DNA from: Isoetes taiwanensis
Taxonomy: Eukaryota; Streptophyta; Lycopodiopsida; Isoetales; Isoetaceae
NCBI GenBank assembly: GCA_021234155.1
Contig: JAJEKV010000238.1
Span: forward strand, 186,001 to 250,000
Length of the DNA stretch: 64,000 nucleotides
Direction: 5' to 3'
Positions 16,406 to 57,009 of the stretch are shown here, piece by piece. Within the stretch, counting starts at the first letter, position 1, and the number at the start of each line of letters is the position of its first letter. The translations under genes were made by a program, and so were the position numbers. Below the pieces are notes generated by a model. It saw only the letters and a list, made by a program, of their open reading frames with translations. It was not told the origin of the DNA and did no database searches.

Positions 16406-18531
16406 TTTCCCCCCATCAAAGCACAGTCAGAGGAGAGAAAAACAAGTACCCTCTCTGAAGGAGGAAAATTTGCAAGATCAACTGCACGTCCTGGCGACTG
16501 TGAGATCGATCTTGATTATGGTACTCAGCGACCAGTTTTTGTCACTGTTGGAGTGCATCCGGTATGGTCCGTCCAAGAGCTAGTGTGGCATCAATGAGAA
16601 ATCCTATTCACACCATTTCTTTAGGGCTTGATGAGCAGCAACAGGCACAAATTGCATTCCATCAACAGAAGAGTCTCAAGTCCAAAGGCACTGACACTAG
16701 CATTAGGGTTGCAATGGAAAATTTGACGCTTCCTATTCAAGGAACTTGGTGCAACGGAGTGTAGCACAAAAGCCAGCTTGTCGATGAATAGATCGGTATC
16801 CTTCCATACATGTATTCGGACAAAGCATAGATCCCAACAAAGATCCACAGTGATGTGCATAGGAGTTCACTCAGCACGAGCAGCCAATGTTCGTGTCCAA
16901 AAAGAAGAATGTCAGTCAGTGGTCATGTACTCACGCTGTGGAGGTGCATGAGAGAAGCATAAGGACTAGGTCGTGGAGGAGGATGCATATGCTCATTTTG
17001 AGGCTGAGCACGGAACTCAGTTACCAATGCTAGATGCAACTATTTGCAGAGCATTTCCCAATTTTGAGGTGGCATCAATGTCTCGAAAGGAGACGGTTCT
17101 CAGTCTAGTGGAATAACTTTACTTTCCAAAATATGTACGGAAAGTATTCAGAGTACCAACATACTAGAGGAACGGCTGTGCATAGCCTATGCCATAATCC
17201 CGCTGTAGATGTGCTTGGGCACACGCAAGAGCTTCTTGTGCCTAGAGTGTGAGATTGGAATAGAACTAGGGCATATATTCGTTGAGAAGCGTGGTCGTGG
17301 CAGTTGGAAGAGAGAGGTAGTGGTTGTCTTTTTGAAGTAACAACACGGCTCCCTCATTTTTCATGAATGCCTCTGGATGGTCTTCGGAAAATCATCTCTG
17401 AGAATGAGCCAGATAACAATTATGCAGAACATAAGCCATTGGCTGAACTGTTAGAAAAATGAAGAACGGAAGATCTTCGACAGGAAGCAACTAAAATTTA
17501 GCCAGGGCATACAAGATGTCTCGTTCTTCAATGGCGAGTCCCGGCCAAAGACGGACAAAATCATTGATTGTAATAGCTCCTTCAACTGAGTCAGATGCAC
17601 TAGGCCATGGGCATCTTAGGTAGATTGCTCCGCTTGCTGGAGCTAGTGTTTCAAATCCTGGATTTGGTTCTTCTTCTCATCCCTTATACGCTTGAGTTCT
17701 TTAAGCTTTCGATGAGCGTGAGCGTTATGAGAGGGAGAGGCATCCATAGAAGAGAGTTGCAATTGGAGACCTCCAAGTTCTGTATCATCTATGATTTCTA
17801 GTTGACAGAGCCATGACTAAATCGTCTAACACAGTGATACATAGCTGTTGTTGCATGGTGATACTTTTCTGAGTTTTGATTTCTTCTTGAAGGCTATGAT
17901 AGAGTGCCAAGGTATCTTGAAGAAGTTGATCCTTACCTAAACCTGTAATGGAGTGTGGATTGCCTCCAACTGAGCCATGGTGTCCTGAGCCATTTTTAAT
18001 TCTTCACAAGCGGCCAAAAGAGTGTTGTGTTTCTCTTGAAGCTGCTCCTCAAGATGACTTTTTTGAGTGGTGAGATCCTAGAGAACATCAGAGATATCCT
18101 GGTCTTTAATACCATTCATTAGTTTTTCTTGGGATTCCTGTAACTGCAGAATACAGCCAGCTATCCGTTGCTCATACTCATAGAGAGCTTGTCGAGAAGG
18201 TTGTAGAGGCTAATGGTGGACTTCTTGCGAGATGGAAACTCGTGACTGCTAATGAGGATTCAGAGGGATTATTCTTTGCAGAGTGATGTGAGGAGAAGAT
18301 GGCAATGGGGGATTTCCTTCATGGAGAAGGATAGTGAGCTTCTCCTTGAAGGTTGACGTTCTGCTGCTGAGAGGTCTCATCTAGAAGATCTTGAATGGTT
18401 GTTATCTTGGAGGGAACCTTACTGGATGCCCGTGACATGGATGCCCATGACATGGATCTGCTTCCATAAGTGGATAAACTGCTAGGAACTGGAAGATTTT
18501 GGTTTATAAGTGCCTAAAAATGTGCACCAAT
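16406..18531 (-). pseudogene. Gypsy A third ORF, C-terminal two thirds, decayed
   Basis: The plus-strand sequence follows the gypsy B region 30880-33190 block by block, for example the complement of a frame reading SAFGLETLLLMECN, against SAFGLQTCLLMEC in gypsy B. The frame is broken by many stops and shifts. The part upstream in the gene continues at 29678-30289, because TIR transposon 1 is inserted at 18531/29678. The function of the intact protein is unknown; it sits in the position where some plant gypsy elements carry an env-like or accessory ORF. Confidence 0.8.
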
Positions 18532-18564
18532 GGGTCCTCGCATGTTACGGTGTCTCATTTTTAG
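18532..18564 (+). repeat. Left terminal inverted repeat of transposon 1
   Basis: It begins GGGTCCTCGCA and continues with TACGGTG and ATTTTTAG. It pairs with the complement of about 29632-29677, where the outer 11 bp are identical and the inner part is diverged and longer by an indel. Confidence 0.85.
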
Positions 18565-19539
18565 TGTCTTTTTGTCCACCCAAATTAGGACTATTTTTTA
18601 GTATTATGGGAAGAGGGAAATTCAAAATTAACGAGAATATTGGGGGGTGGTTGATTCCCCCTTTCTCGAGGGAGAGAGATCTCGTTTCTTTCTTTCCATC
18701 CATTTTTTGTTCAGGCTTCTTGTGATCTAATGACTAATGACGAAGACAGGAGGCGGAAATGGCGTTTGCAGAAGCAGGCAAAGAGCAAGCAAGATGAGGC
18801 AACAATTGTCAAATGAAAATTTAGATTGGAGTATTGAGCACTCAAAAAAGCAATTGCAACATGCAGCCTCCATAATCACAAAAACATTTTTGGATTTGAC
18901 AGGTTCGATGTCTACAGACCAGAAGAAAGAAGTATGGCATCTAGTGAAGAACAGCAAAGTTATGCAGGTTGCAGTGTCTGATAAGGAAAAGATTATTCAC
19001 AATGAAGTTGTCGGTAGCATCCAAGAAACCATACAGCATGTGAAAGGAGTGGAGTCCAATGACAAATTAGCAGAAAAAAGAGCAGCATTAGTCATAGCAC
19101 TTGAGAAGGTCAGGCATGGCAGCAAAAGATTAGCTGCCAAGGCTTTAGGAATTCATCCAAGGAATTGTTCCAGAGATAAGAAGCACCGTGTTACAATTAG
19201 TAATAAAAACGCATTGTGGGCTCTTGGGGGAAGGAAGAAGAGAAAGGATTCCTTGAGCCAAGAAGTGATTGAAAAAGTTATGGATTATTGGACAAACTAC
19301 ACCAGACTTTCGCCTAACTTCAAGGACGTCAGATCTGGTAGAGGAAAATATCCTAAGCATCCAACACATTACCTTGATGTGAGCCAGGTATACTATCTGT
19401 AGATCAGTTTTTTACTAAGTCTTTTTTACGTTTACTAATACTAATATTTTTTATAAGTTTTCAAGTATTTTTTCTAATATGAATTGTGTCTGCTAATGGA
19501 ATTAATCTGCACGTTCTTCTCGTGCTAGCAAGTTTTAGT

Positions 19540-19740
19540 GCTATTGATGGTTGATAATGGATCATTTTTTGATATAGTGCTAAGGTTTCTCACCTTTATA
19601 ATGTTGGTGCCACTTTTAGTAATTGTGTTGATGTTAGTGCCACTGTTAGTGATTTTGTAAATGACAGTGCTAATATTACTAATTTCGTTAATGTTGGTGC
19701 CACTGTTAGTAATTTTGTCAATGTTAGCACTAAACTTAAT
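19540..19740. repeat. Degenerate minisatellite in the transposase intron
   Basis: Words of the type GTTAGTGCCACTGTTAGTAA and TTTTGTCAATGTTAGTGC alternate through the intron with substitutions. Similar word repetition (gcaaacatagtac, gctaact) occurs at the other end of the same element at 28430-28900. It is noncoding. Confidence 0.6.
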
Positions 19741-19762
19741 CTCTAGTTAGTGAAGCACCACC

Positions 19763-20351
19763 ATGGACGGGAGACCAGGTAACAGTTGGATCACTATGGA
19801 ACTCGGGTCTATACTGGCAGATCAAGGTGTGTAGAGGGAGCGAACAGACCACCCTCCTGGGTAGGCTTGTGGAAGCAGCATGAGATGGTGCAAGCCAAGT
19901 TAACGCACGGGATGAAGTAAGCTATCTCCATGCCCTCATCTGTAAGGAAGGGCCCTAGTTCCAGTGTAGTGTTTCCTCTATTTGATTTGGTTGTGACAAG
20001 CACCTGCGGTAGACTCTTATCTTGGGTTGTGTCTGACACCCAAATTGCAGGATGATTGAAGTGCTGCTAATGGACGGAAAAAATAAGAGAAGCCCCTTTA
20101 GTATGTTTTGTTAATGGGAAGAAGCAGAGGCCTATTGGCAGGCTCGCCATAGTACTAGAGACATCACAGAAGATGGAGAGCTTTTCTTATTCCAGTACTT
20201 TGTTAGTTAGCTCTTCACCATCCTCCTGTTTGGGTGTGGTGCCAATATTTCCTATCTAGCCTGTTGAGAGGCTTTGAAATAAGGTTGTATACCATACTTT
20301 ATTAATAAAATCAAAAATATCTTGCCTCCGAAAAAAAAAAAAAAAAAAAAA
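19763..20351 (+). mobile_element. 5'-truncated LINE (L1-type) 3' end
   Basis: About 590 bp end in CTTGCCTCCG plus a run of 21 A (20331-20351), preceded by TTTATTAATAAAAT. The 10-bp word AAGCACCACC flanks the insert at 19753-19762 and about 20350-20359, a target-site duplication. These are the marks of target-primed reverse transcription. No reverse transcriptase frame remains. It lies in the intron of the transposase gene and is younger than transposon 1. Confidence 0.8.
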
Positions 20352-22599
20352 GCACCACCTACCACTATAGATTAGCAATGCTTTCATCCCAATGTCCTAG
20401 CACCGGTTAGTGGTTTGGTTTGCTAAGGGTTATGTTGTAATGCTAATGGAATCAGTAATTAGTTCTAAGTTGCTATTCATTAGCAGTTGTTTTTTCTAGT
20501 GGTATTAGCATTAGCATTTACCAAGTAGTTTCCTATTATTATTCTGCAGACAGAATTCTTCACTAGTTTCAAGCAAGACAATCCAGATGTTCAAATTAAG
20601 CAGAGAGCCTTCGAGAAATTAAAGCCTTACTTTGTTGTAAAGCTATCTGAATCCAATACCTGTTGTTGCGTCTATCATGAGAGGATGTCAATGCTGAGGG
20701 AAGGGGTGAAGAACATGAGGAAAAAGTCCATGGTGCATGTTGCAAATGGCACCTGTGAGTGCAAGATATGTGACCATACGGCAAGCCAAGTAGGGTGCAA
20801 TGCATCAAGACATGTTTGGCAGTCTAACAGTGACATGTGGAGAATCATGGTTTGCCCAAAGCCTGAAGATGAGGAATGGCACAATGAAGCATGCTTGTCA
20901 GGAACCTGCAGCAAATGTGGTGTGGACAAAATGGAAAGGTGTCCAAAAAAGAAACAAAGGACAGAACCTCAAAAGTCACTTGGGAGAACATAGACTACAT
21001 TGAAATTGGTAAGGATAAAAATGGCAAATCCAAAAAAAGAATTGAGCATCAATATTTACAGACTTCACCCAATGTTTTGATGGAAACCTTTAGATCTAAA
21101 GCAAAGGAGTTTGTGACACATAATTTCAGGTATAAATGGCAGCAAGCCACGTTTAGACAACTACTGAACAGGTTTGCTGATGATATTATTGTATCAGTGG
21201 TTGACTTTGCAGAGAATTACTCTTTCAAGGAGCAGAATGAAATCTAATCCAAGCATTGGCATAATGAGCAGATCACTATTCTTGTGCACCTCACATATAG
21301 AAGGGATCCTGAGACACAAGAAATGATCAAGGAAGAACATTTTTATATATCTGATGACAGAAAACATGATTCTTTGTTTGTGCAGCATTGCTTTCTCTTA
21401 CACAATCATTGGATGCAAGAGAAGGAAATCACTTTGAAAAAGCATTATATCTTCTCAGATGGTGCAGCCTCACAATTCAAAGGTAAAAAATCATTTTACT
21501 TTGATGCTAGATTCAAATCTTTAATAGGTTTAGATATGATGTGGAACTTTTGGTGCTCTGGCCATGGGAAGGGAGAACATGATGGTGCAGGAGCAGTAAT
21601 AAAGAGGGCTTTGAGAGCAGCACAGTTGAAGGGCAGCAAGATGACCAATGCACACGGGGTGGTGGAATGGCTAAAGCAGTACATGTCAACAGCAGCACCC
21701 ACAACATATAAAAAGAAGATTCAAACTGTAAGTAGAACTTTTTGGGAGGTTGAAATAAGACAAGTGGACAGAAAAAATCAATGGGAAGCACGTCCTATTG
21801 AAGGATCTAGAAACCTTCATTGTTTCCATGGGTGTTCAAATCACATGACATATTTACAGGTCAGAAACCTCTCTTGCTTTTGCACAGATTGTTTAGATTT
21901 GGATTGGGAATCTTGCCCCAATGCATCATATACTAAGAAGTTTGAACTAGTTGTGGTACAGCCCATCAAAGTTATTATTGAAGAAGAATTAGTACATGAT
22001 GAAGGAGAAGAAGCATATATTGGCAGCGCTGACTTATGTAGCATGCAAGTATCTATAGGTGATGTCTTTGCAGTGGTGGCTCCAAATAACAATCACGAGA
22101 ATGTGAAATTCTACCTTATCCTATGTACCAAAGCTAAGTACTTGGTGTTAGAAGACTTTGTAGATATGCAAGGGCAGAAGTTTGTGAAATGGGATGAGGT
22201 CATAGAAGGGACATACTATGAGAAGTTGGTGAATTGTAAATCCAGCTACAAGTTTTGTAGAGGAAATAAAGCAATTGTTTATGCCACTCAAGTTGCAAAG
22301 AACAAAGTCAGGTTGGTTCAAGCAAAGCACGTTGTTAAGCGGGGAGTGGTTTACACTCTAAGTGCCAAAGAAGAACAAGATATTCTAGAGAGGCTTCCCA
22401 CATTGTTGGAATAGTGAGCAATTGTGTAAAGGGTACTGTATCAGTACTTTTATGAATATAAAGAAGTTTCCGTATTTTGCATTCTCATTTTTTATGCTTC
22501 AGTTACAGAATTTTGTACTCGAATGTTGAATGAATTCCAAATTTCAATCAATTTCAATTGTTGGTGTTTCATACTTTTTTAAATTGCTGGTATACAGAC

Positions 22600-23000
22600 A
22601 GGACACTGAGGCCAATTTATAAGGTAAAACATCTAAGTACAAGGTATAACAAAACCAATTTACAAGGTAAAACATGTTAAGTACAACAGAATTAGAAAAA
22701 GGCACAAGGCACAAATTTACACAAGGCACAAGGTATAACAAAACCACAAATTTACAAAAGGTATAACAAAACCAATTGATTAAAACATGTAAGTACAAAA
22801 TCATAAGAGAAAGGCACAAGGCCATCATCCACATTAAAGAAGGCACTAAGGCCTGGATTACAGAAGGCACAAGGCCTAGATTACAGTCGGCACAAGGCCA
22901 TTACAATCAAAGGCGCTAAGGCCTGGATTAAACAAAAGGCACAAGGCCTGGATTAAACTGAAGGCACAAGGCCTATAGCATGTGTTTTTCAAAAATTTAC
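22600..23000. repeat. Imperfect tandem repeats (AAGGCACAAGGCC type)
   Basis: Two interleaved word families fill this stretch: CAAGGTATAACAAAACCAAT-type at 22620-22790, and AAGGCACAAGGCCTGGATTA-type at 22810-22980. It lies between the convergent transposase and acidic ORF of transposon 1. There is no coding support. Confidence 0.75.
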
Positions 23001-23079
23001 AAAGGCATAAAAGGCCTGTTTCAAAAGAACTTGTAATCAAAAGAAGAAAAAAAAGAAGCAAAGATCTATAAACAAAAAA

Positions 23080-23624
23080 GGATCTTTAGGTCCTCAGAGT
23101 CTCCAGGTTCTTCAGGCCTCATCTGTAAGAAAAATTCAGAAAGTTAGGAAGCTGTAATATGTCAAAGAAAGCAAAAAATGAAAAGCAGACTTACTCTGAA
23201 GCCAATTCTGAAATTCAAAAAAATCTTCAGCTTCCTCCGGGTCCGGGTCTTCTTCTTCGCTGGTTCCTGAAAATTCGCTGGTTGCGTCATCTTCTGAATC
23301 AAAAGGCTGGAGCTCAAAAGAATCCACCTCTGAAGAATCTTTGTCAAAAGACAGGAGCTCAGAAGAATCCACCTCTGTGGATGTTTCAGAAGTGAAATCA
23401 GAGCTGGTGGAATCAGAGCAGGTATCCTGAGAAGGCTCGAGACTTTCTACAATCCAAGTTGGGCGAAAATCTTGGAGGTCTTCTGGTGGCTCTTCAAGCG
23501 GAATTAGCCAAGAACCTATAGCATACCTCGCGAAGAGCTCTGGCAAAGGAAGGGAAATCAATTCCCGGCGTTTGGTAGGGGCAGGGGCAGGGGAAGCAGA
23601 GCGGGAACGGCAGCGCTTCGGCAT
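23080..23624 (-). CDS. Acidic Ser/Glu-rich ORF of transposon 1, unknown function
   Basis: The frame starts at 23624 with a basic, Arg/Ser/Pro-rich N-terminus (MPKRCRSRSASPAPAPTKRR), resembling a nuclear localisation signal. It then has a hydrophobic patch and a long Asp/Glu/Ser-rich tail. A consensus donor (CAGA|GTAAGT) at about 23195 and an acceptor (TTCTTACAG) at about 23128 suggest a short intron before the last few codons. A frame reading EEPGDSEDL lies just past the acceptor. A similar ending, PGDQHDSEDF, occurs near 53200 in transposon 2. No enzymatic domain is visible. It is convergent with the transposase gene and could be a DNA-binding or regulatory accessory protein. Confidence 0.5.
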
Positions 23625-25215
23625 TCTGTTGGGAGAATTGGACGATGCTTCTCCCTCACGACCATATAAAGGTTGACATGAAATAAATTTTGGAGGCTAC
23701 GATTTTAGGATTTTTGTACCATTAGAATCTTAATCGTAATGATTTAGTAGGATACGAAGTGAAATGTAATTACCTTGAAATGACCATAATTTTATTTTTT
23801 AAAACATTAAAAAATATCTTATATTATAAAGTTTTAGCATATGTCATGAAGCAAACCCTAATTTGGATGGTTGACATCATCTGATTGCATCCGAAGACCG
23901 AGATTTATTGCATGAGTTCCCACCACCATAAGGCCATGCTCTAATGTCTGAAGAGGAAAGAGAAAAGGAAAAGGGAGGAGAAAAGGGCAAAGTGAAAGGC
24001 AAAAAGCATGGGTAAAAGGAAAAAAGAAATGGAAAAGAGCACGAAAAAGGGAAACGAAAAGAAAGGAAAAAAGGACACTATAAAAAGTAGAAGAGGGAAA
24101 GGGTAATGACAGGAGTAAAAGAGGAAAAAAAAAGGAATGAGGAAAAGGGTAGAGAGAAGGGAAGGAAAAAGGAGAAGGGAAAAGGAAAGAAAAAGAGAAA
24201 GGAAAAAAAGGGGGAAGAGGAGGGAGCGAAAAGGGACAGTGGGAAAGGGGAAGAGGAAAAAGGTGGGAAAGGAGGAAAAAGGAAGGGAAAAAGGACACGA
24301 AAAAAAAAAGGAAATAGAAAAAGGGAGGGAAGAAGGGATGGAAAGGGAAAAAGGAAAAAGGGAGGGGACGGGGAATAGGGAAAAGGGGCATGGGGAAAAG
24401 AGGAAGAGAGAAGAAGGAAAAGAGAAGCAGAAAAAAGGAAGAGAGAAACGAGGGAGGAAAGGGAAAAAGGGAAAAAGAAAAGAACAAAAGAGGTATGAAA
24501 GGGAAAGAAAAAGACTACGAGAAGAAGGGGAGAGGGAAAGGGTGGGCAAAGGGGAGGAACAAATGGCATTGTAGAAAGGGGAAGAGAAATAAAGGGAAGG
24601 GAAAAAAGAACATGAGAAAAAGAAAGGGAAAAAAGAAAAGAAAAGGAGGTGAAGAGAGGGAAATGGAAGGAAAAAAAGGCAAGAAAAAAAGCTGAAGAGA
24701 GAAAGGGTCTGAAGAAGAGGAAAAGGGAAGGGAAAAAGGCTATTGGTAAAAAATAAAGGAAAAGAAAAAGGGGAAGGGGGAAAGGGAAGCGAAGGGTATG
24801 GGATGGGAGAAAAGGAAAATAAAAAGGGTAAAAGAAAAAAGGGAATGTGAAAAGGAGAGGGGAAAAAAGAAAAGGGAAAAGCGAGGAGGGGGAAAATGAA
24901 AACAAGCAAACGTGAAAAAAGGGGGAAAAACAAATGGAAAAAAGGTAAAAGGGGGATAAAATCGAAAAATAGAAAGGGGATGTGAACGAAAAGGAAGAGC
25001 AAAATAGAAAAAGAAAAAGAGAAGGCACAAAGGGAAAAGGAGGGGGAGGTGGGAAAAGGTGAAAAAAGGGGAAAAGAGGAGCGGAAAACAGCATGGAAAA
25101 ATAGAAGAGAAAAGGGACATGGCAAAAAAGGGAAAGGGTGAGAGAAGGGGAAAATCAAAGGAAAACTGGACATATGGAAAGGGGAAAAGGTAGAACGGGC
25201 ATGGGAAAAGAGAAA

Positions 25216-25375
25216 GAGTGCATGGGGAAGAGGGTGTGATGAAAAGGGCAAAATGGCATAAAGGGCAAGAGTGCATGGGGAAGAGGGTGTGATGAAAAGG
25301 GAAAAATGGCATAAAGGGCAAGAGTGCATGGGGAAAAGGGTGACACAAAGGGAAAAATGGCATGGGAAAAGGAAA
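25216..25375. repeat. 53-bp tandem repeat, about three copies
   Basis: GAGTGCATGGGGAAGAGGGT starts at 25216 and 25269, and a close variant at 25322, giving a regular 53-bp period inside the polypurine tract. The third copy degenerates after about 25 bp. Confidence 0.85.
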
Positions 25376-25925
25376 AGAGAAGGGAAAAAGAAAAAGGAAG
25401 GGAGAAGGATAATGGAAAAATGAAACAAAAAAAAGGGGAAACGGGAAAGGGCGAGGAAAGGGAGAAAGAAATGGAAAAAGGAAAACGGAAAGGGAAAATA
25501 AAAAGGGAAAGAAGAAAAGAAAGGAAAGATGGCACGGGAAAAAGGGAGAGAAAGGGTGAGGAAAGGAGGAAAAGGGAAGGAAAAATGAGCAAAAAAAAGG
25601 GGAAGAGGAAAAGAATGGGAAAAAAGAGAAGGAAAAAAAGGGGCATGGGAAAAGGCAAGCGGAATAGAAAAGCGAGAAAGGGGGAAAGTGCACGAGAAAA
25701 AGGAAAAGGGGAGGGAAGGGAAAAAAGGAAGGGGGAAAAGGGGAAGAGGGAAAGGGTGAGAATAGGGCAAAAGAGAAGGGAAAGAAGGCACGGGAAAAGG
25801 GAAGGAGAAAAGAAAAGGAGGAAAAGAGCACATAAGAAAAAAGAAAGAGGAAAGGGTGGGAGAAACGGAAAATGAAGAGAAAATAAGTACGGGAGGAAGT
25901 GGAAGAACAAAAGGGTGGGGAAAAG

Positions 25926-26006
25926 ACAAGGCAAAGGCAAAGGCAAAGGCAAAGGCAAAGGCAAAGGGAAAGGGAAAGGGAAAGGGAAAGGGAAAGGGAA
26001 AGGGAG
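25926..26006 (+). repeat. Hexamer array (GGCAAA)n then (GGGAAA)n
   Basis: About six GGCAAA units pass directly into about seven GGGAAA units at about 25926-26006. The GGGAAA part provides more than four closely spaced GGG runs, enough for an intrastrand G-quadruplex. It is not the plant telomere repeat. Confidence 0.9.
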
Positions 26007-26762
26007 GGGGAAAGAAATGGGAAAAGTGGCATGGAAAAAGGAAAAGAAGGAAAGGTGGAGAAAGGAGGAAAATAGAAGGGAAAGAGGCCATCGAAAAAAG
26101 GAAGAGGAAAAGGGAAGAGAAGGAAACATGCAAGAGAAAAGACAAAGGGAAAATATGTGGAGAAAAAGAGGAAAAGTGAAATGCAGGATACAGGAAAAAG
26201 AAAAGAGAAAGGGATTGGGCTTTTCTCATTGTGACCCAAAACATTTACAGGCTCTTAACTTATGCCCAGCAACGCTGGGTACCATTACTAGTATATATAT
26301 ATATATCTCTATCCTGAAATGGCCATTCTTTTTTGGACACCAATCATCTTATGTTGGCTTGGCACTTGTTTAGTAATTGTAATTGTAACTAGTTAGTGTG
26401 AATTGCTTGTTGACTTCAAAATTGTTGACTTACGCATCACCAAACATGTTGGTCAATGAAAGTCAAACATTTGCTTGGGGGTGATTCACACTTGTTGACT
26501 TGAAAATTGTTGACTTACTTCCACCACATCAGGTACTGCTTTGGCCTTTTTGAAAAGTTTGTACGGGAAATCCTCCGGCACAATAACCAAAAGCTTCTTT
26601 CCAACACACTAGCACTGTGCAGTGAAAACTATTAGAAAAATTATATCAGTACAACAGGTAGAAAGAAACACAGTAGAATCATCATAGTTTCTTAGTTATT
26701 GATTTGGATGGAGCTCGTTTGCTGGAGGAAACTTGCTTGGAATTATTCTTAGAAGGAGATTC

Positions 26763-28344
26763 TCAAACTGATGCCAAATCAGTTTCTTCCTCTGTGATTG
26801 TCTTCTCCACAATATCAGCACGTTTGTCCAAATTGGAAACATAATCATCTATATTCTTCAACACTGCTTCACATTCTTCATCTATTACTTGCACAGCATT
26901 ATCTTCAATTCTGTTAGAAATGTCAACTATAGAGTTTGAAATTTTCAAACTTGAGCCTGCATCATTTAAATTATCAAACTAAATAAGTACTTATAGAAAA
27001 AAAATCCAAAGTAGTTATACTTCACAAGAATAACTTACTTTCAGTCTTTTACAACTATTACTTTGTTCAGCATTGTCTCTCTTCAAGTTTGGGTTTGTGG
27101 AAGATAATAAAGTGCAATCTTCAATAGATTGCATAATTATATTAGGCTCCTCCAAGTCAGCAGGTGTGCTTAATGATGGATCTTGACTCTTTTCAATGGA
27201 CTGCACTGCACTATAATTGGGAGCAGATTCCATTGCAGATCTACATGGAAGTCCAATGGACCTGAACCAATTATGAGGCATCTAGCTCTCACAAGAGGGA
27301 CAAGTTGATCTCTTTGAGAAACATATGTAAGCGCAAATTGGATGAAAACTGTGCATGCAATGTGCAACAATGGCTGAGACACAAAGTGGGTCATAGGCAT
27401 ATGTACAGAAAGAACAACTTTGTAATCTTGCAAATGCTACGGTAGAGCATTTTGGATGTTCTAAAAATTAAAGGTTGAGTTGCAGTCCAGACATCTTATT
27501 TAGAGATGAAGCTATTTCTTTCAACTTCTCCAGCCTTGGTTGGAGTGTATGTTCTTCATCTTCTGCCTGTTTAAAAATAAAAAGAATGATGAAGCAGAAA
27601 GAAAAAGTATTGAGCACTATGTAATTGCAAAGGTCATTAGCAATTACCCCTTTGTGAATTTCCTCCATACTCTTGTATGCTGTTGTCGCCTCCAAAAGTT
27701 TATTTTCCTTGGAAAACAGCATTGACGACAAGAATGTAATGACACTGGAGTGCTCACACCTGGCCTTTGCTGCTTCAATTTGCTGTTTTGTAGCATCCAC
27801 CTCGTAACTGCACTTCTTCCACAACTTCCTTTTTTTCCTTCATTTCACTGGCTGCACTTTTAACTCTAACATTCAAGTCATCCTTCTGCTTATCTAACTC
27901 AGCGATCAAGAAGTTGATGACAGAATAGTCCACTACACAACCAACAACGTTTGTATGAGGAAATAAGGACTCATACTCATCTTCTTTCTCAAGCTTAGCT
28001 GTAACACTTTTCTTTATTTTAACCACAAATGACTGCCAGTTAATCTTTTGTCCTCTCACATGCAAAGTGAATGCCCGTGCAAAAAACTTCCCAATCTCTC
28101 CAACACAAACATCAGTTCTTTGGTAACATCTTCTGTAGATGTTCATAAACTGATCCACAAATAGTGGATTCATTCGACTAGACTTATAAATTTGCTTGGT
28201 ACCCACCAGTTTTACACATCCAAATATTTTGCTTATCTCATCTTCAGCCACATCTGGCTTTCTTACATCTGAAGAGGTCATGCCCTCACAAGGCAACACA
28301 GATGTGTCAAACATCCTCCTTGCTTCCTCTTCGTCTATGGTCAC
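26763..28344 (-). pseudogene. Coiled-coil/RING-H2 accessory gene of transposon 1
   Basis: Reading right to left, the segment from 28344 encodes an alpha-helical N-terminal region and a Lys/Glu-rich coiled coil (to about 27770). It continues after a +1-type shift near 27800 (ATKQQIEAAKARCEH...). An intron with GTAATT/AAACAG borders (about 27653-27570) is followed by a further coiled coil. A finger at about 27420-27290 reads CSFC...AHCMHSFHPIC...CPSC, which fits C-x2-C...C-x-H-x2-H-x2-C...C-x2-C, the RING-H2 pattern of ubiquitin ligases. An in-frame TAG follows directly after the finger. A Ser/Glu-rich tail extends to 26763. Transposon 2 has the homologous gene in the same convergent position, so it belongs to the family. 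The role is unknown; ubiquitin ligation would be inference. Confidence 0.7.
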
Positions 28345-29160
28345 TTTAGGTTGAGTCTTCTATCTCTACACCAGCTTTGAAATTATATATCAGTGGAAGT
28401 TCTTCATTGTGTCTGCAAAAAACTAAACCAATCCAAATCATAGCACTAAGTATCCTGAATAGTACTAACTTTAAGAGCTTAGCAATGAACTGCTACTTTT
28501 TCTAAATAATTACTAATTGTCATCAACACCAATTACCTTGAGCCTACTGTCTGCAAAATAGCAAATGCTTAGCATGTCATGCTAAATAGTAGCTAACTTT
28601 TTCTAACTTAGCACTGAACTTCATCTTCTTAGCAACCGCCGCTAATAACAATTTGAGCCTGCAAGTGTAGCATAAAATTTGCGTTGTTAATGTAACCTGC
28701 TACTTAGCAAATGTTGCCTGCAAACATAGAACGAAATCACTAAGTAACTCGTACATAGCACATACTAACTAGCAAGTACTGCCTGCGAAACATAGTACCA
28801 ATATAACATGTTAGCATAAATTGCTAACTGATTGTCTGCAAACATAGTACTAAATGCTTAACTCGTTAGCATCAACTACTGAACTTGTACGACCAAACAT
28901 TACTGCGGTGTATTTTTCGCTGATGCCAAGCACAAAAAATTCTAGCTTGAAATATCACACTAATAAAGAGATGAATCAAAGCAAGATGGAATGCAATCCT
29001 CCACACCTGCTATATTAACTTTTGTCCTCAATATAGAAGCATGAAATATAATAGAATGAAACCATTTCCACATTATTTACCATTCCCAAAGATTTGTCAA
29101 CAAAGATTAGATGCTTACCACTAAAAGAACTTTTCTTGAGTCTGAGAAATTGTTCAGATG
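28345..29160. other. 5' flank of the RING gene in transposon 1
   Basis: No gene seen. The stretch at 28430-28900 is built from recurring short words (TAGCAAATGCT, GCCTGCAAACATAGTAC, GCTAACT), a decayed minisatellite. It probably holds the minus-strand promoter and first exon(s) of the RING gene, which I could not place. Confidence 0.4.
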
Positions 29161-29480
29161 AGCAATTTAATCCGAGCTCTTTACCAAGCGGGGTAATGGG
29201 ATCTCGATTGACTGGCAATCGATTGTTTAGAATGGTACAAATAACCGAATTCGATAATTACTGCTGTGGAAGCAGCACAGTCACAGCAATTTAATCCGGC
29301 CAGTTAACCAAGCAGGGAAATGGGATCTCAATTGGGGCTTTTGTTGAATCTAATGACTGGCAATTGATTTTTAGAATGGTACAAATAACGGATTTCGATA
29401 ATTACTGTTGTAGGAGCAGTACAGTCACAGCAATTTGATCCGGCCAGTTAACCAAGCAGAGTACGGGGATCTCGATGGGG
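29161..29480. repeat. Subterminal tandem repeat, three units of 124-143 bp
   Basis: Units begin AGCAATTTAATCC at 29161, 29285 and (with one change) 29428. Each includes ACCAAGC, GGGATCTC and, in the first two, GAATGGTACAAATAAC and GATAATTACTG. They lie just inside the right TIR of transposon 1. Such subterminal arrays can serve as transposase-binding sites in other TIR elements. Confidence 0.85.
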
Positions 29481-29631
29481 AGTAGCTATCTTTCTGAATC
29501 TGATCCAAGAAACTCCAAGAAAGAAGGAAAGGAAGAAAGGTTCGACGGTTTAGGATCCCATGGGTGGGATTTAGTGCTAAAATAAAATTTAAAAATTCAA
29601 TTACACCCCGTTAATTAGCGCTATTAGTTAG

Positions 29632-29677
29632 GGCTAAAAATGGCGTCATTTATGCCACCCATAGCGTGCGAGGACCC
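29632..29677 (-). repeat. Right terminal inverted repeat of transposon 1
   Basis: On the minus strand it begins GGGTCCTCGCA and continues ATGGGTGGC with an ATTTTTAG block further in. It matches the left end at 18532 and is followed directly by the CAAT target duplication at 29678-29681. Confidence 0.85.
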
Positions 29678-47979: not shown

Positions 47980-48565
47980 TGTTTGGGGTCTGGGTTCGGG
48001 AACTCCTGCAAGACAGCCCTCTGTGAGGAACCTTGGATCTAACAGGAGAACCCGGGAGCTATGTCACGCGGGATTTGCAAGAAAAACAAGGAAAAGGGAA
48101 AAGAAAACAAAAGAGAACAATGAGATCACAATAATGAGCTTCCTTGATGTCAATGAAGATACATGAGCTCTCGCAATCGAGAGAAAACTGAAGTGAGACA
48201 AGACTCAAAACTCATCTAAAACTCATGTGCTAGCTCTACTCATATATATAGTACAATGGCCTTTGGCCCAATATAGACACTCTGACTGATTTCGGTGCCG
48301 ACTCCTGGAAGAAGGCCTGATTTGCAGGAATGCTGGCGGTGCCTCTTGAAGTGCCTGAAACCATGCTGACGCTGACGCGGGCGGTGACGGGCCGTCACTT
48401 GTCTGAGTGCCTCCTCTTGACGTCAGGCGTGGTCTTTGTCTGCGTGGATGCTTGGTCTTCTGCTGGGCCTTTAACGACTGACCTGTGCCTGACTGTAGAT
48501 CCTTGGCCTTGACTTGGTCCGTCGTATGCATGAATAGTCCTGTACCAGGAGGCACAGGACTAACA
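47980..48565 (-). repeat. 5' LTR of gypsy B
   Basis: 586 bp, same ends as the 3' LTR. A minus-strand TATATATA box at 48241-48250 would start the genomic transcript toward gag. A frame on the same strand (48223-48645) is the LTR copy of the third ORF's C-terminus and is not a separate gene. Confidence 0.92.
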
Positions 48566-49212
48566 GACGAAAATCTTGAGGCAGTAAAGGAGATGAGGAG
48601 TCGAAGAACACGTGAAGAATAGGGGTATAGCAGTTCAGGTGTCATTTATATGAAGGGGCCATAGGGAGATCGGAGCCATTGAAAAAGACAGGTGGCGAAC
48701 ATCGCTGAAACAGGAAAGCGATCAAAAATTTGGTGAAGTCCCCAGTAAGGCACAAGAGAAGGAACATGTGATGGGACATCATCGTGAGGGACAGTTGCAT
48801 AATTAAGAATAGCAACTCACGGTAGAGTGTAGTTGTATTCGTCCCGTCCGTGCAATAATGGAAGGGTGCGATATTTACGGTCTGGTACAGTAAATTCCAA
48901 GAGGATCTTTTTGATGAAAAATCCATGATGGGTAAGGATGGGACATGTGGAATGACAACTAGGATGCCAGCTTGACAGAGTAACAAGCCGGTGGCCTCTA
49001 TAAGAACGGATCAAGACGAAAGAGAAGAATTAGCAGAAGAACACCATGGGCTTCGTGAACACTATGCTCAGCGATTGCCTTGAATGGATCACTTGGCGCA
49101 TGAATCATCTGGGTATATAGAAGCTAAAAAACTATGGAATTCCTATGGATGGCTGGCTGACGGGCCTGGCAGAGATGCCCGACCTCCATTCTGAATATGT
49201 GGATGTGGTGAT
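48566..49212. pseudogene. Gypsy A spacer with opposite-strand ORF relic, first half
   Basis: The region corresponds to gypsy B 33680-34530. On the plus strand a TATA box (48998) precedes ATG 49046. The frame reads DCLEWITWRMN, then TAG at 49118-49120, then NYGIPMDGW...AEMPD, and is cut by transposon 2 after GTGGTGAT. It resumes at 56858 (next entry). The alignment with gypsy B keeps register without gaps, which supports coding on this strand in the common ancestor. Confidence 0.7.
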
Positions 49213-49241
49213 GGGTGAAAGTATGCTGGTGGGTAGCAAAA
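49213..49241 (+). repeat. Left TIR of transposon 2 with adjoining palindromes
   Basis: 29 bp identical to the complement of 56829-56857. A perfect 24-bp palindrome (49240-49263, centre CGTCC|GGACG) follows immediately, and a hairpin ATCAGCACCC...GGGTGCTGAT lies at about 49286-49321. The palindromes are on the left side only. Confidence 0.92.
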
Positions 49242-49756
49242 GCATGCGTCCGGACGCATGCTTATAGCAGGGTTTTAGCCCGCTATCAGCACCCCTGCTT
49301 TTGCTTAATCTGGGTGCTGATGGGCGTAACTGCCCGTCATTTCTTTTTACGCCCTTCATGTACTCGCACAACACCTCACGAACGAGCCGTTAGGAAAATG
49401 ATTGTGGGCTTTTGGCTGGATTTTGTAGCGAGTGGTGGTGTGGTAGCACGTTGCAAATTGGATTACCGTCATGGCCCATGAAATTTCTCCCTCCAATTCA
49501 CTTATCCTCCCTCTCGGGAATTTCATGGCTCCCCGATACCGGCCTCGAGGCAATCACACATTTAGCATTGGATTTTTGGCCCGATGAATCCCAATACTGA
49601 TGTTCCGTGATCTGTTGGATGTCAATGCAACTGAGGAAATATCACGTGAAGATCCGGTTTCCTCGCAATTTACAAGAAATTGGATGCAGCGAGAAAGAGA
49701 GAATACTGATTACGGAATAAGATGAAAAAGCAAATGGCTGAGCGGGAGGATCGAGC

Positions 49757-52700
49757 ATGAGACTTGGGCAAGAAATAGCCAAGCAAGTAGTTGATTACTT
49801 CAATAAGCTCACCAAAAACATTCACCGAACTCAAGGCCGATGTGATGAAGAGGGTGGTTCATCACCACGAAATGGAAATCTCGAGAACACGGAATTTTGC
49901 CAAATCCAAAGGAGTGCAAGGCGTGGGTGCTGCTCAACAACTTGAAACAGACAATGGCAGCCACAAAGAGGCAAAGGAACCATGATGTTTGGAGAGCCGT
50001 AACCTCATTACACGGGTGATGGCTTCTTCCACAAAATTGAGATGCAATTCCACTATGGCGGGGTTGTTAGGTGCAACTAATTCTTGCTTTCATGCCTGCG
50101 GCTTCTTAGGTGCTTTTTAAGTGCTTTTAAGTGCTTGTATCTGCTGAGTGATGCTTTGGATGAGATATGTTCATTGATTAATGTGTGCAATATTTCTTAT
50201 GATAGGTTGCATGAGGTCAACAATTGCAACCTATTTGATTAAGAAAAATCGGAAGGCCGCCCTTGGAAATGGTCCGTGGTCTAGCTTCCAAAGGAGGTTG
50301 AGGTGCGATTCTCTCACCCCTGCTTGCAAGCAAAGCATAACAGAATTCTGGAAACAAAATAGCAGAGTCTCTCCTTGCAAGAAAGATGTTGTGAACACTG
50401 TTGGAGAGTCAAGCCCGAATTTCTTATCCCTTGCACCTTATGGAGGTCACACGGTATAAGTTTCCATACAAATTTTTCTTTGCTATTGTTGCATAAATAT
50501 TTCTAACCAAGCGGCCACCATTCAATTTGGAGCTATTTCAACAATACAAAAAGGCACATCCCCGAACACCCTGTTTGCTTAAAGGCTTTCGAGAAGTTGA
50601 AGCCTATTTATGTAAAGAAAGTATCAGAAAGGGAAACCTGTTGTTGCATATACCATATGAAGTTGGAGTATGCCAGGGTAGCCCTGAATGCATTAAGGTC
50701 AGCGAAAACTGGATTTCATGGTGAAGAGTGCAAGTGCACCTGCGAGGTCTGTGGACTGGTGAGGCGATGTCCGCCAGCCAATATATGTATGACTCAACCC
50801 GGTGAAAGCTCACGGAGGGTCGTGGGTTTGCAACAAGAGCGAGGGTGAAGAATGGCATAAACATGACTGCTTGATGCAGACATGTCAGAAGTGTGGCATA
50901 AAAACTCTTCCTATATGTCCAAGAGAGAGAGAGAATCATGAGTTCTTGCTTGAATGGAAGACGTTTGAAAAGGTAATACTCTCTTTATTGCATGCTGCAA
51001 CATGCTGATATGTGCTGTCATCCGCTGAAAACTGCTTTTGTGCTTTCAACTTGCGCTAATCTTCTGTTTTATGCTACAGACCTTGTTACAGATTCCAGTG
51101 GAGACAGAAGAGGCTGGTGGAGTTGCAGACTGCGTTACCAAGGAGGTGCCAGGTGGCAGCAGAAAGAAAAGAGCCAATGCCACCAAGAAGGGAAACAAAA
51201 GTAAGAAATCCAAGGTAGCTGGTGGGACACAGCCTGAAGCTGCAGCACAAGTTGAGAAGAAGGGAAACAAAAGTAAGAAATCCAAGCAAGCTGGTGGGAC
51301 ACAGACTGAAGCTGCAGCACAAGACGAGACCTCAAATGGCAAGGGGAAAAAAAAGAAAGGACCAAAGCCAGTCCTCAGATTGTCTTACAAGAGAACGGCA
51401 GTGAAGGATTTCATTTCATATCTGTGTTCCACATTGAAGATATTCGTGCCACACAATTACAGGGCTAGATGGCAGGCCATGCAATTCAGGAGTTGCCTGG
51501 ACAATATTCAAGATGGCATCATTGTTTCTGTAATTGATTTTTGCAGAGAATTACAAAGATAAAAATACAAAGGGAGGTTCAAAGCCAAAGATTGGCACAA
51601 TGACCAGATAACAATTCTCGGCCCACATCATTATAGGATGGACATCAGTTCTGGGATCAGAAAGCTATTGAAGGAAATCCATTTTTACTTGAGTGATGAC
51701 AAGCTTCATGACACTCTTTTTGTGTAGCACTGTCTTAGAAAGCACAATTCATGGCTTGTATCAAATGGTGTAGATTTCTCCAGGCATATAGTTTGGTCAG
51801 ATGGTTGTTCTAGCCAATTCAAATCTTCTATTTCCTACCAAGATATCACCATGAGCTAGGGAAGGAAATAGTATGGAATTTCATTGGGACAGCCCATGGT
51901 AAGGGAGAGCACGATAGGCAAGGGGCAGTCCTTAAAGGGGCATTCACTAGAGAGCAGCTCAAATATGATGGGGTGAGATTTAGGGGTGCTGCTAATGCAT
52001 GTGAATTCGCAAATCGCTGGAATGAAGGTACCAACAACGGGGACATCAAAAGGTATTATGCTTTCATCCGCCAGATTCGTTGAGTAGTGCCGCCTCAGAA
52101 ACTGCCAGAATAATGTCTTTGAATAGTGCTTTCATCCGCTTTAAGTCTTTGTCTCGTGAACTGGCCAGATCTTGGATGAGTAGTCCAGATATGATGTCTG
52201 TGAGATGCAATACTTGTTGTTTCCTTGCAGGTACTTCTGGGTAATTGGAAAGGATGATGTTGATAGGACAGACCCGCTGGACTGTGCCAGGGTGGAAGGG
52301 ACCAAGCAAATACACAGCATCCGAACATACTTGGCCAAATCAAGCACAAGGGTGGCTCGGAGAGGTTTAAGTTGTTTCGTGGTAACCGTTTGAAAGGAAA
52401 CCGGTCATCTTGTGTGAACAAGCAATGATTGAAGAATTGGAAATATGTTACACTAAAGCCGATAAGCTCCATGGTGAAGGTAATCAAGACTAAATCGATG
52501 AGGCATTTTTGAAGGTGATGGAGAATGGCTATCAGGAAACGTAGAGGAAGGTGATAACTTTGTTGTTGAAATGAAAGGTGGAAATCAGGAGAATGCAGAT
52601 TTCTATGTGGTCAAATGTGTTAAGTCGAGGCATATCCTTGACGTAATTGTCAAGGATAGCCGGGTCGAACCTTCAATGTGGATGAACATGTGTTGGCTGG

Positions 52701-52858
52701 TTTGTACTATCTTTGCCTTGACCCGGATGGTAGTTGGGAGCTACTTGAAGACAAAGGCCGACTTTCAATCTGATCATCACGTATCGGCTATCAAGTTTGA
52801 GATGAATCGATTCACGGCACCAACAGATTTTCCCTTGAACGGGCTACTCACCGGATGA
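49757..52858 (+). pseudogene. Transposase of transposon 2, decayed
   Basis: Segments in order, separated by introns or shifts: a basic N-terminal part (49790-49985); 50181-50459 with DSLTPACKQSITEFW, matching DSLSQEVIEKVMDYW of transposon 1; 50530-50780 with AFEKLKP-like, ETCCCIYHMKLEYA and a Cys cluster; and EWHKHDCLMQTCQKCG with CP. An intron of about 50975-51079 is followed by a Lys-rich internal repeat (KKGNKSKKSK twice) and HNDQITIL, LSDDKLHDTLFV, WSDGCSSQFK (D at 51800). HGKGEHDRQGAVLKGAF is at about 51894, and the C-terminal part runs to 52858. Stops (for example TAG near 51726) and shifts abolish function. The shared motifs place it in the same family as the gene at 18737-22414. Confidence 0.75.
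51200..51320 (+). repeat. Internal 63-bp coding duplication
   Basis: GGAAACAAAAGTAAGAAATC followed by CAAG-AGCTGGTGGGACACAG and CTGAAGCTGCAGCACAAG occurs twice in tandem, duplicating a Lys-rich then Gln/Ala-rich peptide in the transposon 2 transposase. Transposon 1 has no such duplication. Confidence 0.8.
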
Positions 52859-53189
52859 TCCTTTGACACCGCCATATGAAGGTTGAATATGCTTTGGCCT
52901 AGTTGTTTTATCATTGTAACAAATCTGTAGTTACTTGTGTACTTGTCTCAAATTTTGATCATTGTATTGGAGACAATGCCCCTGAGACAATGTTTGTAGT
53001 ATTGGTTTGAATTATTGGAGTATTTTAGTATTGGAAACAATGCTTGTAGTATTGGAGAGTAAGCTTGATATATATTACAGAAAATTGTACACTCAAGATT
53101 AGAACATCACTCAAGATCACTCAATACTGAAGATAAGACAAAGTAATCATACATATATATTACAAAAAAGTACTGTACAATGGTTACTT

Positions 53190-53960
53190 CATGAGTCATC
53201 GAAGTCTTCAGAGTCATGCTGGTCGCCAGGAAGGGTGCCCAGCAGCTGCCTTTGTACTTCTAATGGAGCATTGAGGATATAGTAACTGTCTCCTCTTCCA
53301 ACCATGCATCAGTGATGTCAACCTGTGAGATCGTTTCCTGTACAGTATGAGAAGACAAGTACTCCAAAGTTGGACACACAAACTTCTGCAAAAAGTTGTC
53401 CTCTTCTTGCCCCTTGAAAGGCATAATGGGAAGGGTTGTGTGTGCAGGGTTTAGAAACCCTTTGTGTAGGCTGTCATCAACCAAGAAAATCATACCATGA
53501 TTTTGAGGAAAATCCTCAAGTACAACCTTCAACTCCTTGAAAAAATCTGCTTTTTCTCGGGTCTTTTGGATGCTCGCATGCATAGCAATGCTCTTGACCA
53601 TAAACCTTCAAGAATCTGGTCCGCAAATCGGGAACAATGCATCCACCATATCCCTTGTATTCCGAAGTAGAGAAGCACTCCAAATAACAATATCAAACCT
53701 CTGCGAAGTGCCCACTCCACAAATTCATGATACCCCTCGTCCGCAAATGAGGTACTTATTTGCGGTTTCTTTTACAACATGCTTGGTTTGTGGTGGAGGC
53801 AAGATTTTCCCCGTTCATTCTCCTCTCATTTGTTATGCGCCAAGACACCATTTACGCCCAGCACCATCAACTTCCGTGCGGGTGTCCATCCTTGGGACGT
53901 TTGCAACCACCGTCGATGTGTGCCGCATCGTGCTTGTGCATCCGCAATGTGTGCTTTGGA
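53190..53960 (-). pseudogene. FCP1/NIF-like HAD phosphatase relic in transposon 2
   Basis: Minus-strand frames read, right to left, LMVLGVNGVLAHNK (near 53890-53840), then GYHEFVEWALRRGFDIVIWSA (about 53740-53680), then FLVDDSLHKGFLNPAHTTLP (about 53500-53440), ending GDQHDSEDF-DDS near 53195. This order is that of plant FCP1/NIF-type HAD phosphatases (motifs LDLNG, V-WS, and VDDSP-K--LNP). The first catalytic Asp is replaced (LGVNG) and stops or shifts are present, so no active enzyme. It occupies the same position as the acidic ORF of transposon 1, and both end in a short acidic GD-DSED tail. It is either a normal family gene or a captured host gene. Confidence 0.7.
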
Positions 53961-54659
53961 CTCACTGGGAAGTGCTATCGGGGATGTCTTTGGGCGGTCT
54001 TTGCCGCAACCTCTTTGGACTCGCTTTATCTTTGCTACGGATGATGGAGAGTGCTGATAGCCATAGTCGATACATCCTTATTAGTATCTCCCGCCCCCAA
54101 TGTATGGGTGTTTCCGGCTATCGGTAACCCTTGATTTGCCTTTGTCCTCGGTTTCTTCATTCACGACTGTCTTGTTCTCCGCATGCAAGGATGAGCTGCA
54201 ATTAACAACTGAAATTTGAAACACATTCGAAATATAACAGGATAACAGGCACCTTTTGTATGTTAGAGTTTGTCTTTGGCACTTCTTTATCTGTATTGTC
54301 TTCTTCATCGATTCACTAAGTATAACCATTGGCTGCCTTCTTTTTCTCGAGACAAGTTTTTACGAAAGCCTAAGTTGAATAATCCAAACCAAAATTTGCA
54401 CATTAAAGGTGGAATAAAACAGGGATCAAATATATTAATTGTTTGAACAAAAACCTTTTTGGTGATGGTTTAGGGTTGTCTTGCAAATTCAAGGTTTGCT
54501 TAAGTTCGAAATACATAAGGCAAAATTACATTAGCCATGTTTTTCTTTCCAAATGCTACTTCTATGGGGACGTCCTCATCAAGGTCATTTTTCGACTCAC
54601 CCTCACTTTCTTCTTCCACAACCTTCCCGGCCCTTGACCGTGTCAACTTTGTTCACTGC

Positions 54660-56522
54660 TTAACGACCGGTCACGAATCGATTGCCGACATCTTCGCCAT
54701 CGTTTTCCTTCCCTGCAGCAACAGTGTTAGAGGAGGCCTTTATAGAGGCAGCTGCAGAATTTGGAACTATACTATAATTGTTGGCACCATCAGTACTACT
54801 TGAATCTCCCTTGGATTCAGCATGCTTTGGTGTCTCAAAGACCTTGGTCGCCAAGTCCGCAGCAGTGTCAAGAGTCTTTGGTAGTTTGTTGTCCAATGTC
54901 TCAAAAGCACCTTTCGATCTTTGTCAATTCAAAATCAGAGCCTAAAAACAGGCATGTACCTTTTTTCCCATGTCTTGGATGTGGAGTGTGAAGCCTTGTG
55001 GACTTGTGCTTGGCTGATCCTGGGGTCCTTTTACTTTTTGGTGTGATTTGTTGTTTCCTTTTCCTGCTGCTACCAGGAGTTGTGGCTACATGCTCATCAA
55101 CATCAATTATCTTCTTCTCGGTTTTGTGAGCTGTTCCAGCATGCAACACTTCCTGCTTTATTGTATTAAGCTTACCTATTTCCTGCACTAAGCCAGTAGG
55201 AATGGTCTCTATGCACTCGAGGCAGCATCCTCTTTCCATGAGCAAACTGGTGCAGCTAACGCGATAATGATGTCCACATTTCATCCGCAGGCTGAGGGTG
55301 TAATCATCCTGGAATGCAAGACCACAGGTGGAGCATCTCTCCTCATCTCCAATTGGCAATCGGAATGGTATTGGAGTGATGCTGACCAGCTGATCATTTC
55401 TCTTGGTCATCTCCCTCAGCCTGGTGACATTCTGTAAGTGCTGCTGGGCTTTTGCAAGGAGGGACTCGTTGTTGGCAATCTCGGCGATTAGTGCGACCAC
55501 CTTTTCTACAATGGTTTGATCTATTGGCCCACCCCCATTTCAAGTAGGGACTTCAAAGATATATTACGCCATATCTTTCTCCCTCTCCAAAGAATGAATC
55601 TCTCAGAGACACTGCATTAGGATCCGCGGTGCTTGAAGGCGTGCAATATTATCCTTTATGGTCTTCAACTTCCCCTCGCGCGGTAGAAGAAGCTTCCCTT
55701 TGCCTCCAGTTATGCGGCCTGTTCCTTCTTTGACACTAGGTCATTCTCAGCGCAATTTTAGGGCTTCCTGCATATCTTGGATCATGCTTTCCGGACGGGA
55801 AATATTTTCCCCATAAGTCGAGAATCTTCTTTGGACACATTGAAGTACTCTGAATGACAACCTCCTTCTAATTTTGGCCAGATGCCGAGGCTGGGCTTTT
55901 TCTCGCAATGCTTTTAGTCTTTGTTATGCATTTGTGATTTCTTTGGGCTCTATTTTGTGTTCCATTGTAATACGCCGGTAAGCCGAGTTCACTCTTGACC
56001 TTGCTCGAATAGGCTACGCTTTTTCGCCCTGCTGCCCAATTGACCTTGAAATTTTCTGGATCCTGCTTGGCCCTCTTGCAGTTGTTGAATGCAAATAAAA
56101 AGAAACCGTCTTCCTTACTTCTCTGTTCTTCAACCCTTCTGGGTATATCTTGCTCAACAGCTCAATTAGAGCTTCTTCGTGCTCTGGCCTTATTTTGTCG
56201 ATGGATGTCTTGTTCGGAATGACACCATTGGTGTCCCAAACCTCATTATATTCTGCTGCAGATATCACATCCGTTCGAAATTGAGAGGGATGCACGCCCT
56301 CGTTTGATAGACCCGCGTAGGCATGGAAGTCCTCCTCAGTTCGGCAATCAGCCAGGTCGGGTCTTAGGGGCACGTTCCTTCTGGGCTGAAAGAAATCAAG
56401 AAAAACAAATTAACAGGGCACCATAAGCCATCAAAATTAGATTTGCATTTTGCTTACCCTGCAAGATGGCATCCATTGGAATTGCCGGGCCGAGCCGGCG
56501 GATTAACAACCTTCTTCACCAT
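54660..56522 (-). pseudogene. Coiled-coil/RING-type gene of transposon 2
   Basis: Start ATG at 56522, exon 1 to 56458 (MVKKVVNPPARP...). A donor GTAAGC and acceptor CCCAG at about 56380 lead into RNVPLRPDLADCRTEEDFHAYAGL...NREVRKTVSFYLH (56379-56014). This is comparable to the N-terminal part of the transposon 1 gene. Decayed sequence follows, then a coiled coil and a finger at 55500-55200 reading CSTC...KCGHHYRVSC...CCLEC. The spacing equals the RING-H2 finger of transposon 1, but one zinc ligand is Arg. A basic KRKQQITPKSKR segment and a Ser/Ala tail end near 54660. Stops lie between the N-terminal exon and the coiled coil. The parallel with transposon 1 shows that this gene belongs to the family. 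Confidence 0.7.
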
Positions 56523-56828
56523 AGTTTTTGGCGTTTGAGTTTTGGAATACTAAGCTTGGAGTGAATCCGGAAATTCTCGAGCTTCTTCTCCGCGGGCTAT
56601 TTGGCCGGAGTAGCAAAAGGTGGGGAGCACGGTTCGAAATTACAAATTCAAAGTTAAGCTACCCCCTTCGGTCCGCGGTCATTAGTTACGGTGGGCGGTA
56701 AGAAGGTTATGATTGAAACGGGTACGCCCTATGTGAAGTGACGGGCATAGCATAGGTTACACTTCAATTGGTGAAGGGTGGAAAAAATAGTATGAAGGGT
56801 GCTGGTGCTGGGTGCTGGGGTCGCGTTT

Positions 56829-56857
56829 TTTTGCTACCCACCAGCATACTTTCACCC
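56829..56857 (-). repeat. Right TIR of transposon 2
   Basis: Perfect complement of 49213-49241, followed directly by TGAT (56858-56861), the target duplication. Just inside lies a GC-rich run of GGGTGCTGGTGCTGGGTGCT. Confidence 0.92.
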
Positions 56858-57009
56858 TGATCCATCTGCAACGGCATCACAGACGAGGGTATCACATCTT
56901 GTGGGCCTGCTTTGTGACCAATTTTAAATAAGGATGGTCTAGATAGTACGTAGTGTGACAATATAGAGGAGAAATCCTCAATTTTGTATGTAATCTACTA
57001 CGTTTTCAA
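56858..57009 (+). pseudogene. Gypsy A opposite-strand ORF relic, second half
   Basis: It continues the frame interrupted at 49212: after the shared TGAT the plus strand reads IHLQRHHRRGYHILWA, against VHLRWDPEQNYYHILRI in gypsy B. An AATATA-rich 3' region follows, as in gypsy B. Confidence 0.7.

Follow-up and report, generated by a model that had tools for sequence, protein, structure and literature searches.

A 64,000-nucleotide stretch of the Isoetes taiwanensis genome (hereafter the window; positions 186001-250000 of contig C268 in a 1.66-Gb assembly of 1110 contigs) carries two elements, designated Tn1 and Tn2, that are probably fossil members of two large DNA transposon families belonging to one superfamily, most likely Sola. 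Both elements start with GGG and end with CCC, and each is flanked by a 4-bp repeat. The inverted ends are 19 nt long and 84% identical in Tn1, and 39 nt long and 90% identical in Tn2, where the first 29 nt are identical. An earlier sequence-only reading of the window had given coordinates, GGG/CCC ends and 4-bp flank repeats for both elements, and all of these were exact.

18532..29677, plus strand: Tn1, whole element, 11,146 bp (borders from ends, flank repeats and empty-site join)
18528..18531, unstranded: Tn1 left target duplication, CAAT (exact copy at 29678-29681)
29678..29681, unstranded: Tn1 right target duplication, CAAT (sequence inspection)
18532..18550, plus strand: Tn1 left inverted end (inverted-repeat comparison)
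29659..29677, minus strand: Tn1 right inverted end (inverted-repeat comparison)
49213..56857, plus strand: Tn2, whole element, 7,645 bp (borders from ends, flank repeats and empty-site join)
49209..49212, unstranded: Tn2 left target duplication, TGAT (sequence inspection)
56858..56861, unstranded: Tn2 right target duplication, TGAT (sequence inspection)
49213..49251, plus strand: Tn2 left inverted end (inverted-repeat comparison)
56819..56857, minus strand: Tn2 right inverted end (inverted-repeat comparison)

A chance match of the ends was ruled out using 2,000,000 random pairs of points 7-12 kb apart within the window. A 4-bp repeat was found in 9,598 pairs and an inverted end matching in at least 10 of 11 positions in 23, and none of the 2,000,000 had both. 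The borders also agree with an empty-site comparison. Tn1 and Tn2 had been read as insertions in an older gypsy element (gypsy A) that becomes collinear with a second one, gypsy B, once they are removed, and ungapped codon alignments bear this out for both. Gypsy B lies between Tn1 and Tn2, and its ends (30284-30876 and 47974-48565) are 97.8% identical. When the Tn1 flanks are joined with one CAAT kept, they give an ungapped alignment of 102 codons with window positions 33419-33114 that runs across the junction (42% identity). The joined Tn2 flanks, with one TGAT kept, align with gypsy B at 34373-34558 over 62 ungapped codons, also at 42% identity, and read VVIHL at the junction where gypsy B reads VVVHL. 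The result is one of collinearity and not of an intact gene, because gypsy A has stop codons in both of the stretches compared.

Further copies were sought in the assembly using the ends and the transposase core as queries. In each search 40 candidates were scored, and candidate counts are not copy numbers. The left 200 bp of Tn1 gave 237 candidates (96-100% identity in the 40 scored), the right 200 bp of Tn1 gave 224 (94-100%), and the right 200 bp of Tn2 gave 577 (96-100%). The Tn1 transposase core gave 991 candidates, and the 40 scored produced 42 match rows at 92-100%. Both ends were located in 13 of the 28 Tn1 copies inspected and 7 of the 11 Tn2 copies, and in these 20 copies the ends fall at the same bases. 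A few genomic copies have single substitutions within GGG..CCC. The 4-bp flanks are exact duplicates in 15 of the 20 and match at three of the four bases in the other five, a difference that we read as later mutation. Exact Tn1 duplications are CAAT (window), TCAA (C1071), ATAC (C1100), AAGA (C1057), ATCA (C954), GCCC (C975), AATA (C1029), ACAC (C907) and AGCT (C941), and the four Tn1 copies with one mismatch are C1019, C557, C996 and C1028. For Tn2 the six exact words are TGAT (window), CTCA (C1074), AGCA (C1053), TACT (C1020), CTTT (C1018) and AATA (C1072), with a single mismatch in C1099. AATA accounts for two of the 15 exact words and every other word occurs once, and none of the exact pairs extends to a fifth base in the flanks compared. 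The duplication is thus 4 bp long and has no fixed target word. Collecting copies, as the sequence-only reading had proposed, turned up neither differing end positions nor another duplication length among the 20 for which the two ends were located. The paired ends of Tn1 copies are about 8 to 24 kb apart. In C1029 and C907, where the distance is 17.8 and 24.4 kb, the ends were assigned to each other by position, and each copy has identical duplications. Two Tn1 left ends, L021 and L029, have the same 24-base flank, so that one of them may be a copy made together with its surroundings.

The transposase genes are on the plus strand in both elements, and an intact transposase is present in neither window copy.

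18737..19387, plus strand: Tn1 transposase, first exon (open frame; matches relatives P0018 and P0027)
19388..20549, plus strand: Tn1 transposase intron, GT..AG, phase 0 (sequence reading; boundary inferred)
20550..22414, plus strand: Tn1 transposase, second part with catalytic domain (translation, protein match)
21203..21205, plus strand: putative catalytic Asp 1 of Tn1, in DFAENY (motif aligned with P0003 D240)
21458..21460, plus strand: putative catalytic Asp 2 of Tn1, in SDG (motif aligned with P0003 D323)
21581..21583, plus strand: putative catalytic Asp 3 of Tn1, in HGKGEHD (motif aligned with P0003 D364)
50268..52639, plus strand: Tn2 transposase, broken frames (protein match)

The Tn1 gene is broken by a frameshift near 20945-20957 and by a TAA stop in frame at 21245-21247, and the Tn2 gene has several breaks. 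The cores of the two transposases are approximately 41-50% identical, and the six common protein motifs noted earlier are all present in both translations. The three Asp residues of DFAENY, SDG and HGKGxxD are identical in 34 of 34 alignment rows, with a caveat for two of the rows. The acid residues proposed earlier therefore stand in part: the Asp of SDG and that of HGKGEHD are conserved, the adjacent Glu is not, and the first member of the triad is the Asp of DFAENY, which had not been listed. A structure predicted for P0003 has the RNase H fold that had been put forward as a check, with the conserved acids at the catalytic places, and its leading structural matches are retroviral integrase cores. 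The earlier description of Tn1 and Tn2 as one transposon family holds at the level of the superfamily. As one narrow family they are ruled out, since their ends differ and their transposases are 30-50% identical in pieces, and they represent two separate families. The Tn2 transposase region includes a 72-bp unit repeated twice (51185-51329) that encodes a lysine-rich stretch. At 19753-20352 the Tn1 intron contains an insertion resembling a short interspersed nuclear element, with AAGCACCACC on either side and a terminal run of some 22 A. Between the left end and the core, copy C1071 is approximately 600 bp shorter than the window Tn1.

A search of the protein database found 71 transposase relatives, moss, liverwort, Klebsormidium, sea urchin and cockroach among them. 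The unnamed relatives from Ceratodon purpureus (P0027), Klebsormidium nitens (P0018), Calypogeia fissa (P0049 and P0050), Lytechinus pictus (P0055) and Periplaneta americana (P0068) have the same three aspartates (DDD) and motifs, with 27-45% identity where aligned; this comparison covered the transposases. A transposase profile, A1, gave 24 pattern matches and no relatives in viral contigs, and six pattern matches with one relative in bacterial and archaeal genomes. That relative (L079) is on a 4-kb contig of a metagenome bin labelled bacterial, and the contig is perhaps a eukaryotic contaminant. The gene model of Klebsormidium P0018 joins the transposase to leucine-rich repeats, and that of Periplaneta P0068 is extended by a long C-terminal part and carries a UniRef name that includes 'DDE-1 domain'; each may be either a fusion or an annotation error.

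Passages of PMC10741241 characterise Sola elements by a DDD transposase, a 4-bp duplication, inverted ends of at least 11 bp and sizes mostly of 2-9 kb, with some above 15 kb. Tn1 and Tn2 agree in each of these features: duplications of 4 bp (15 of 20 exact, the rest with one difference), a DDD triad in all 34 rows at positions that fit an RNase H fold, inverted ends of 19 and 39 nt, and sizes of 7.6 kb for Tn2 and about 8 to 24 kb for Tn1. The hosts are also comparable, as Sola is known from other non-flowering plants; Sola1 is reported from the moss Physcomitrella in passages of PMC9033089, and SOLA from Azolla in passages of PMC6786969. Assignment to Sola or to an undescribed relative, as the sequence-only reading had it, remains the best reading, and membership is judged by features because named Sola transposases lie outside the comparison.

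Several observations weigh against this reading. For 15 of the 28 Tn1 copies and 4 of the 11 Tn2 copies the fetched stretch showed only one of the two ends, several of the stretches fetched for Tn1 being at guessed positions, and a quarter of the paired duplications are off by one base. The predicted structure is that of P0003, a relative with 46% identity, and not of the window protein, and Foldseek alone returned weak matches (best NurA, E 4.7e-4). The classification by features just described belongs here also. No excision was seen, and tblastn found no pairwise similarity between the accessory proteins of Tn1 and Tn2, described below (its best hit, E 0.14, fell at unrelated places).

The two elements could instead represent an undescribed DDD superfamily outside Sola that has the 4-bp duplication by chance, which we consider unlikely without being negligible. 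Consistent with this, the window transposase pieces have no Pfam match above cutoff, precomputed Pfam domains are absent from 70 of the 71 relatives (the remaining one has only leucine-rich repeats), no solved structure in the PDB matches profile A1 at E up to 1, a PDB search using the Tn1 core gave only a chance-level match, and the six motif words are absent from the literature text searched. Against it are the agreement with Sola in every feature open to testing and the above reports of Sola from moss and Azolla. An origin from Ginger, IS481EU or a retrotransposon integrase is very improbable. The best structural matches are retroviral integrase cores, and passages of PMC10045372 state that IS481EU and Ginger can make 4-bp duplications. 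However, five transposase pieces gave no Pfam rve match at E up to 1 (piece 20888-21247 was not run alone), whereas the gypsy integrase in the window does match rve, and rve is precomputed in none of the 71 relatives. The ends are GGG..CCC and not TGT..ACA, and at the third catalytic position all 34 rows have Asp. Integrases use DDE and the present transposases DDD. Of the RNase H-fold proteins compared, which are retroviral integrases, SETMAR, IstA and the V-K CAST transposase, none was matched by sequence in the PDB using A1. Kolobok and piggyBac duplicate TTAA, a word that is absent from the target duplications of all 20 copies. Academ, Zator and KDZ have transposase families and duplication lengths of their own, and the comparison with them covered Pfam, where no match exceeded the cutoff.

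Both families also have a second set of open frames, on the minus strand and opposite to the transposase.

26718..28359, minus strand: Tn1 second gene, N-terminal part, coiled-coil-like part, RING-like finger and linker (split over frames here)
27285-27467, minus strand: Tn1 RING-like finger (PF13639 E 0.002, below cutoff)
26519..26605, minus strand: Tn1 second gene, first residues before the NIF match (29 residues at 86%)
55871..56409, minus strand: Tn2 second gene, N-terminal part, split over frames (translation comparison)
54904..55539, minus strand: Tn2 second gene, RING-like finger part (weak Pfam match, below cutoff)
53263..53607, minus strand: Tn2 second gene or neighbour, C-terminal part of an NIF/FCP1-like phosphatase domain (PF03031 E 1.1e-6, 28.8 bits)

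The main stretches of the Tn1 second gene are 92-95% identical at the protein level in copies C1071 and C1100, which does not by itself indicate selection because the element ends are equally alike. In the window Tn1 the NIF-matching part is absent and only the 29 preceding residues are kept; about 1.5 kb of the C1100 Tn1 copy is unmatched in the window element, which has a purine-rich block close to this place. The same strand of that copy (L081:1456-2034) matches PF03031 at E 2.7e-8 and 34.1 bits, above the cutoff of 21.8 bits. The NIF region of the C1071 Tn1 copy is in two pieces, one scoring 18.9 bits (E 0.0013, below cutoff) and the other without a match. The match is stronger in Tn2 copy C1100 (E 1.1e-17, 64.6 bits; above cutoff), for which the nearest solved relative is UBLCP1 (3shq_A, E 2.4e-4). 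PF03031 above cutoff is common to these domains and to the NIF/FCP1 phosphatases UBLCP1 and TIM50, and here it is transposon-borne. PDB searches using the Tn2 window NIF piece and the Tn1 NIF piece gave nothing useful, and a single-sequence fold of the Tn2 piece (mean predicted local distance difference test score 38.9) was not used. Catalysis by the Tn1 domain is doubtful because IEPED is found, in both Tn1 copies read, where we expect the motif with the nucleophile Asp; for Tn2, the copies read have broken frames at this place. The finger is open over 337 residues in Tn2 copy C1018 (E 0.013, below cutoff). The best RING score was 20.7 bits against a Pfam cutoff of 27.3, and the Cys/His spacing looks RING-like, so that we use this weaker label. 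Finger and phosphatase may be one protein or two.

The link between the second genes of Tn1 and Tn2 is one of shared domains, strand and order. The gene may be a helper of transposition, or may act on host transcription or silencing. A distinct possibility is that the region is a passenger, made of host gene pieces caught by chance and with no role in movement. The whole gene is open in none of the copies read, the NIF-matching part is missing from the window Tn1, a protein database search using the Tn1 protein up to the finger gave 1489 candidates with none at E 0.01, and the dissimilarity by tblastn is as expected of two separate captures. Against chance capture, both families, at approximately 41-50% identity in the transposase core, agree in the two domain types, in their order and in their strand. 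More tentatively, and rather doubtfully, a Sola-like lineage could have taken up a host NIF/FCP1-type phosphatase before the families split and joined it to a RING-like finger, the product making the host permissive, for example via RNA polymerase II, ubiquitin or silencing. The passages of the Sola literature consulted do not mention a second gene with RING-like and NIF/FCP1-like parts, and a narrow search, which is not proof of novelty, found no publication joining NIF/FCP1, a RING finger and Sola transposons.

In the proposed mechanism the transposase, whose three catalytic Asp lie in an integrase-like RNase H domain, would bind the GGG..CCC inverted ends, pair them and excise the element, probably by metal-dependent cutting via the three Asp. 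Joining of the element to the target at two cuts 4 bp apart, followed by repair, would give rise to the 4-bp duplication. Movement would be by cut-and-paste, with intact copies presumably having moved both families, and the second protein might either aid through an effect on transcription, ubiquitin or silencing or be a passenger.

These elements add to a poorly described superfamily two plant families whose borders are exact and whose candidate copies number in the hundreds, together with a conserved DDD family, without a Pfam entry, that occurs in green plants and animals. What is new here is the phosphatase/zinc-finger gene region in both families, a sign that such elements carry one, and the role of an accessory gene in a cut-and-paste transposon becomes testable.

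Other features of Tn1 include a purine-rich block of about 2.3 kb at 23950-26220, of GGAAAA type with AT and GC skew of about 0.8, within which a 53-bp unit is repeated three times (25207-25363). An acidic, serine-rich open frame of 186 residues at 23139-23696 on the minus strand has no Pfam match. Outside both elements, window positions 1429-3969 contain a receptor kinase gene, pointing to a land plant, with lectin and S-locus domains.
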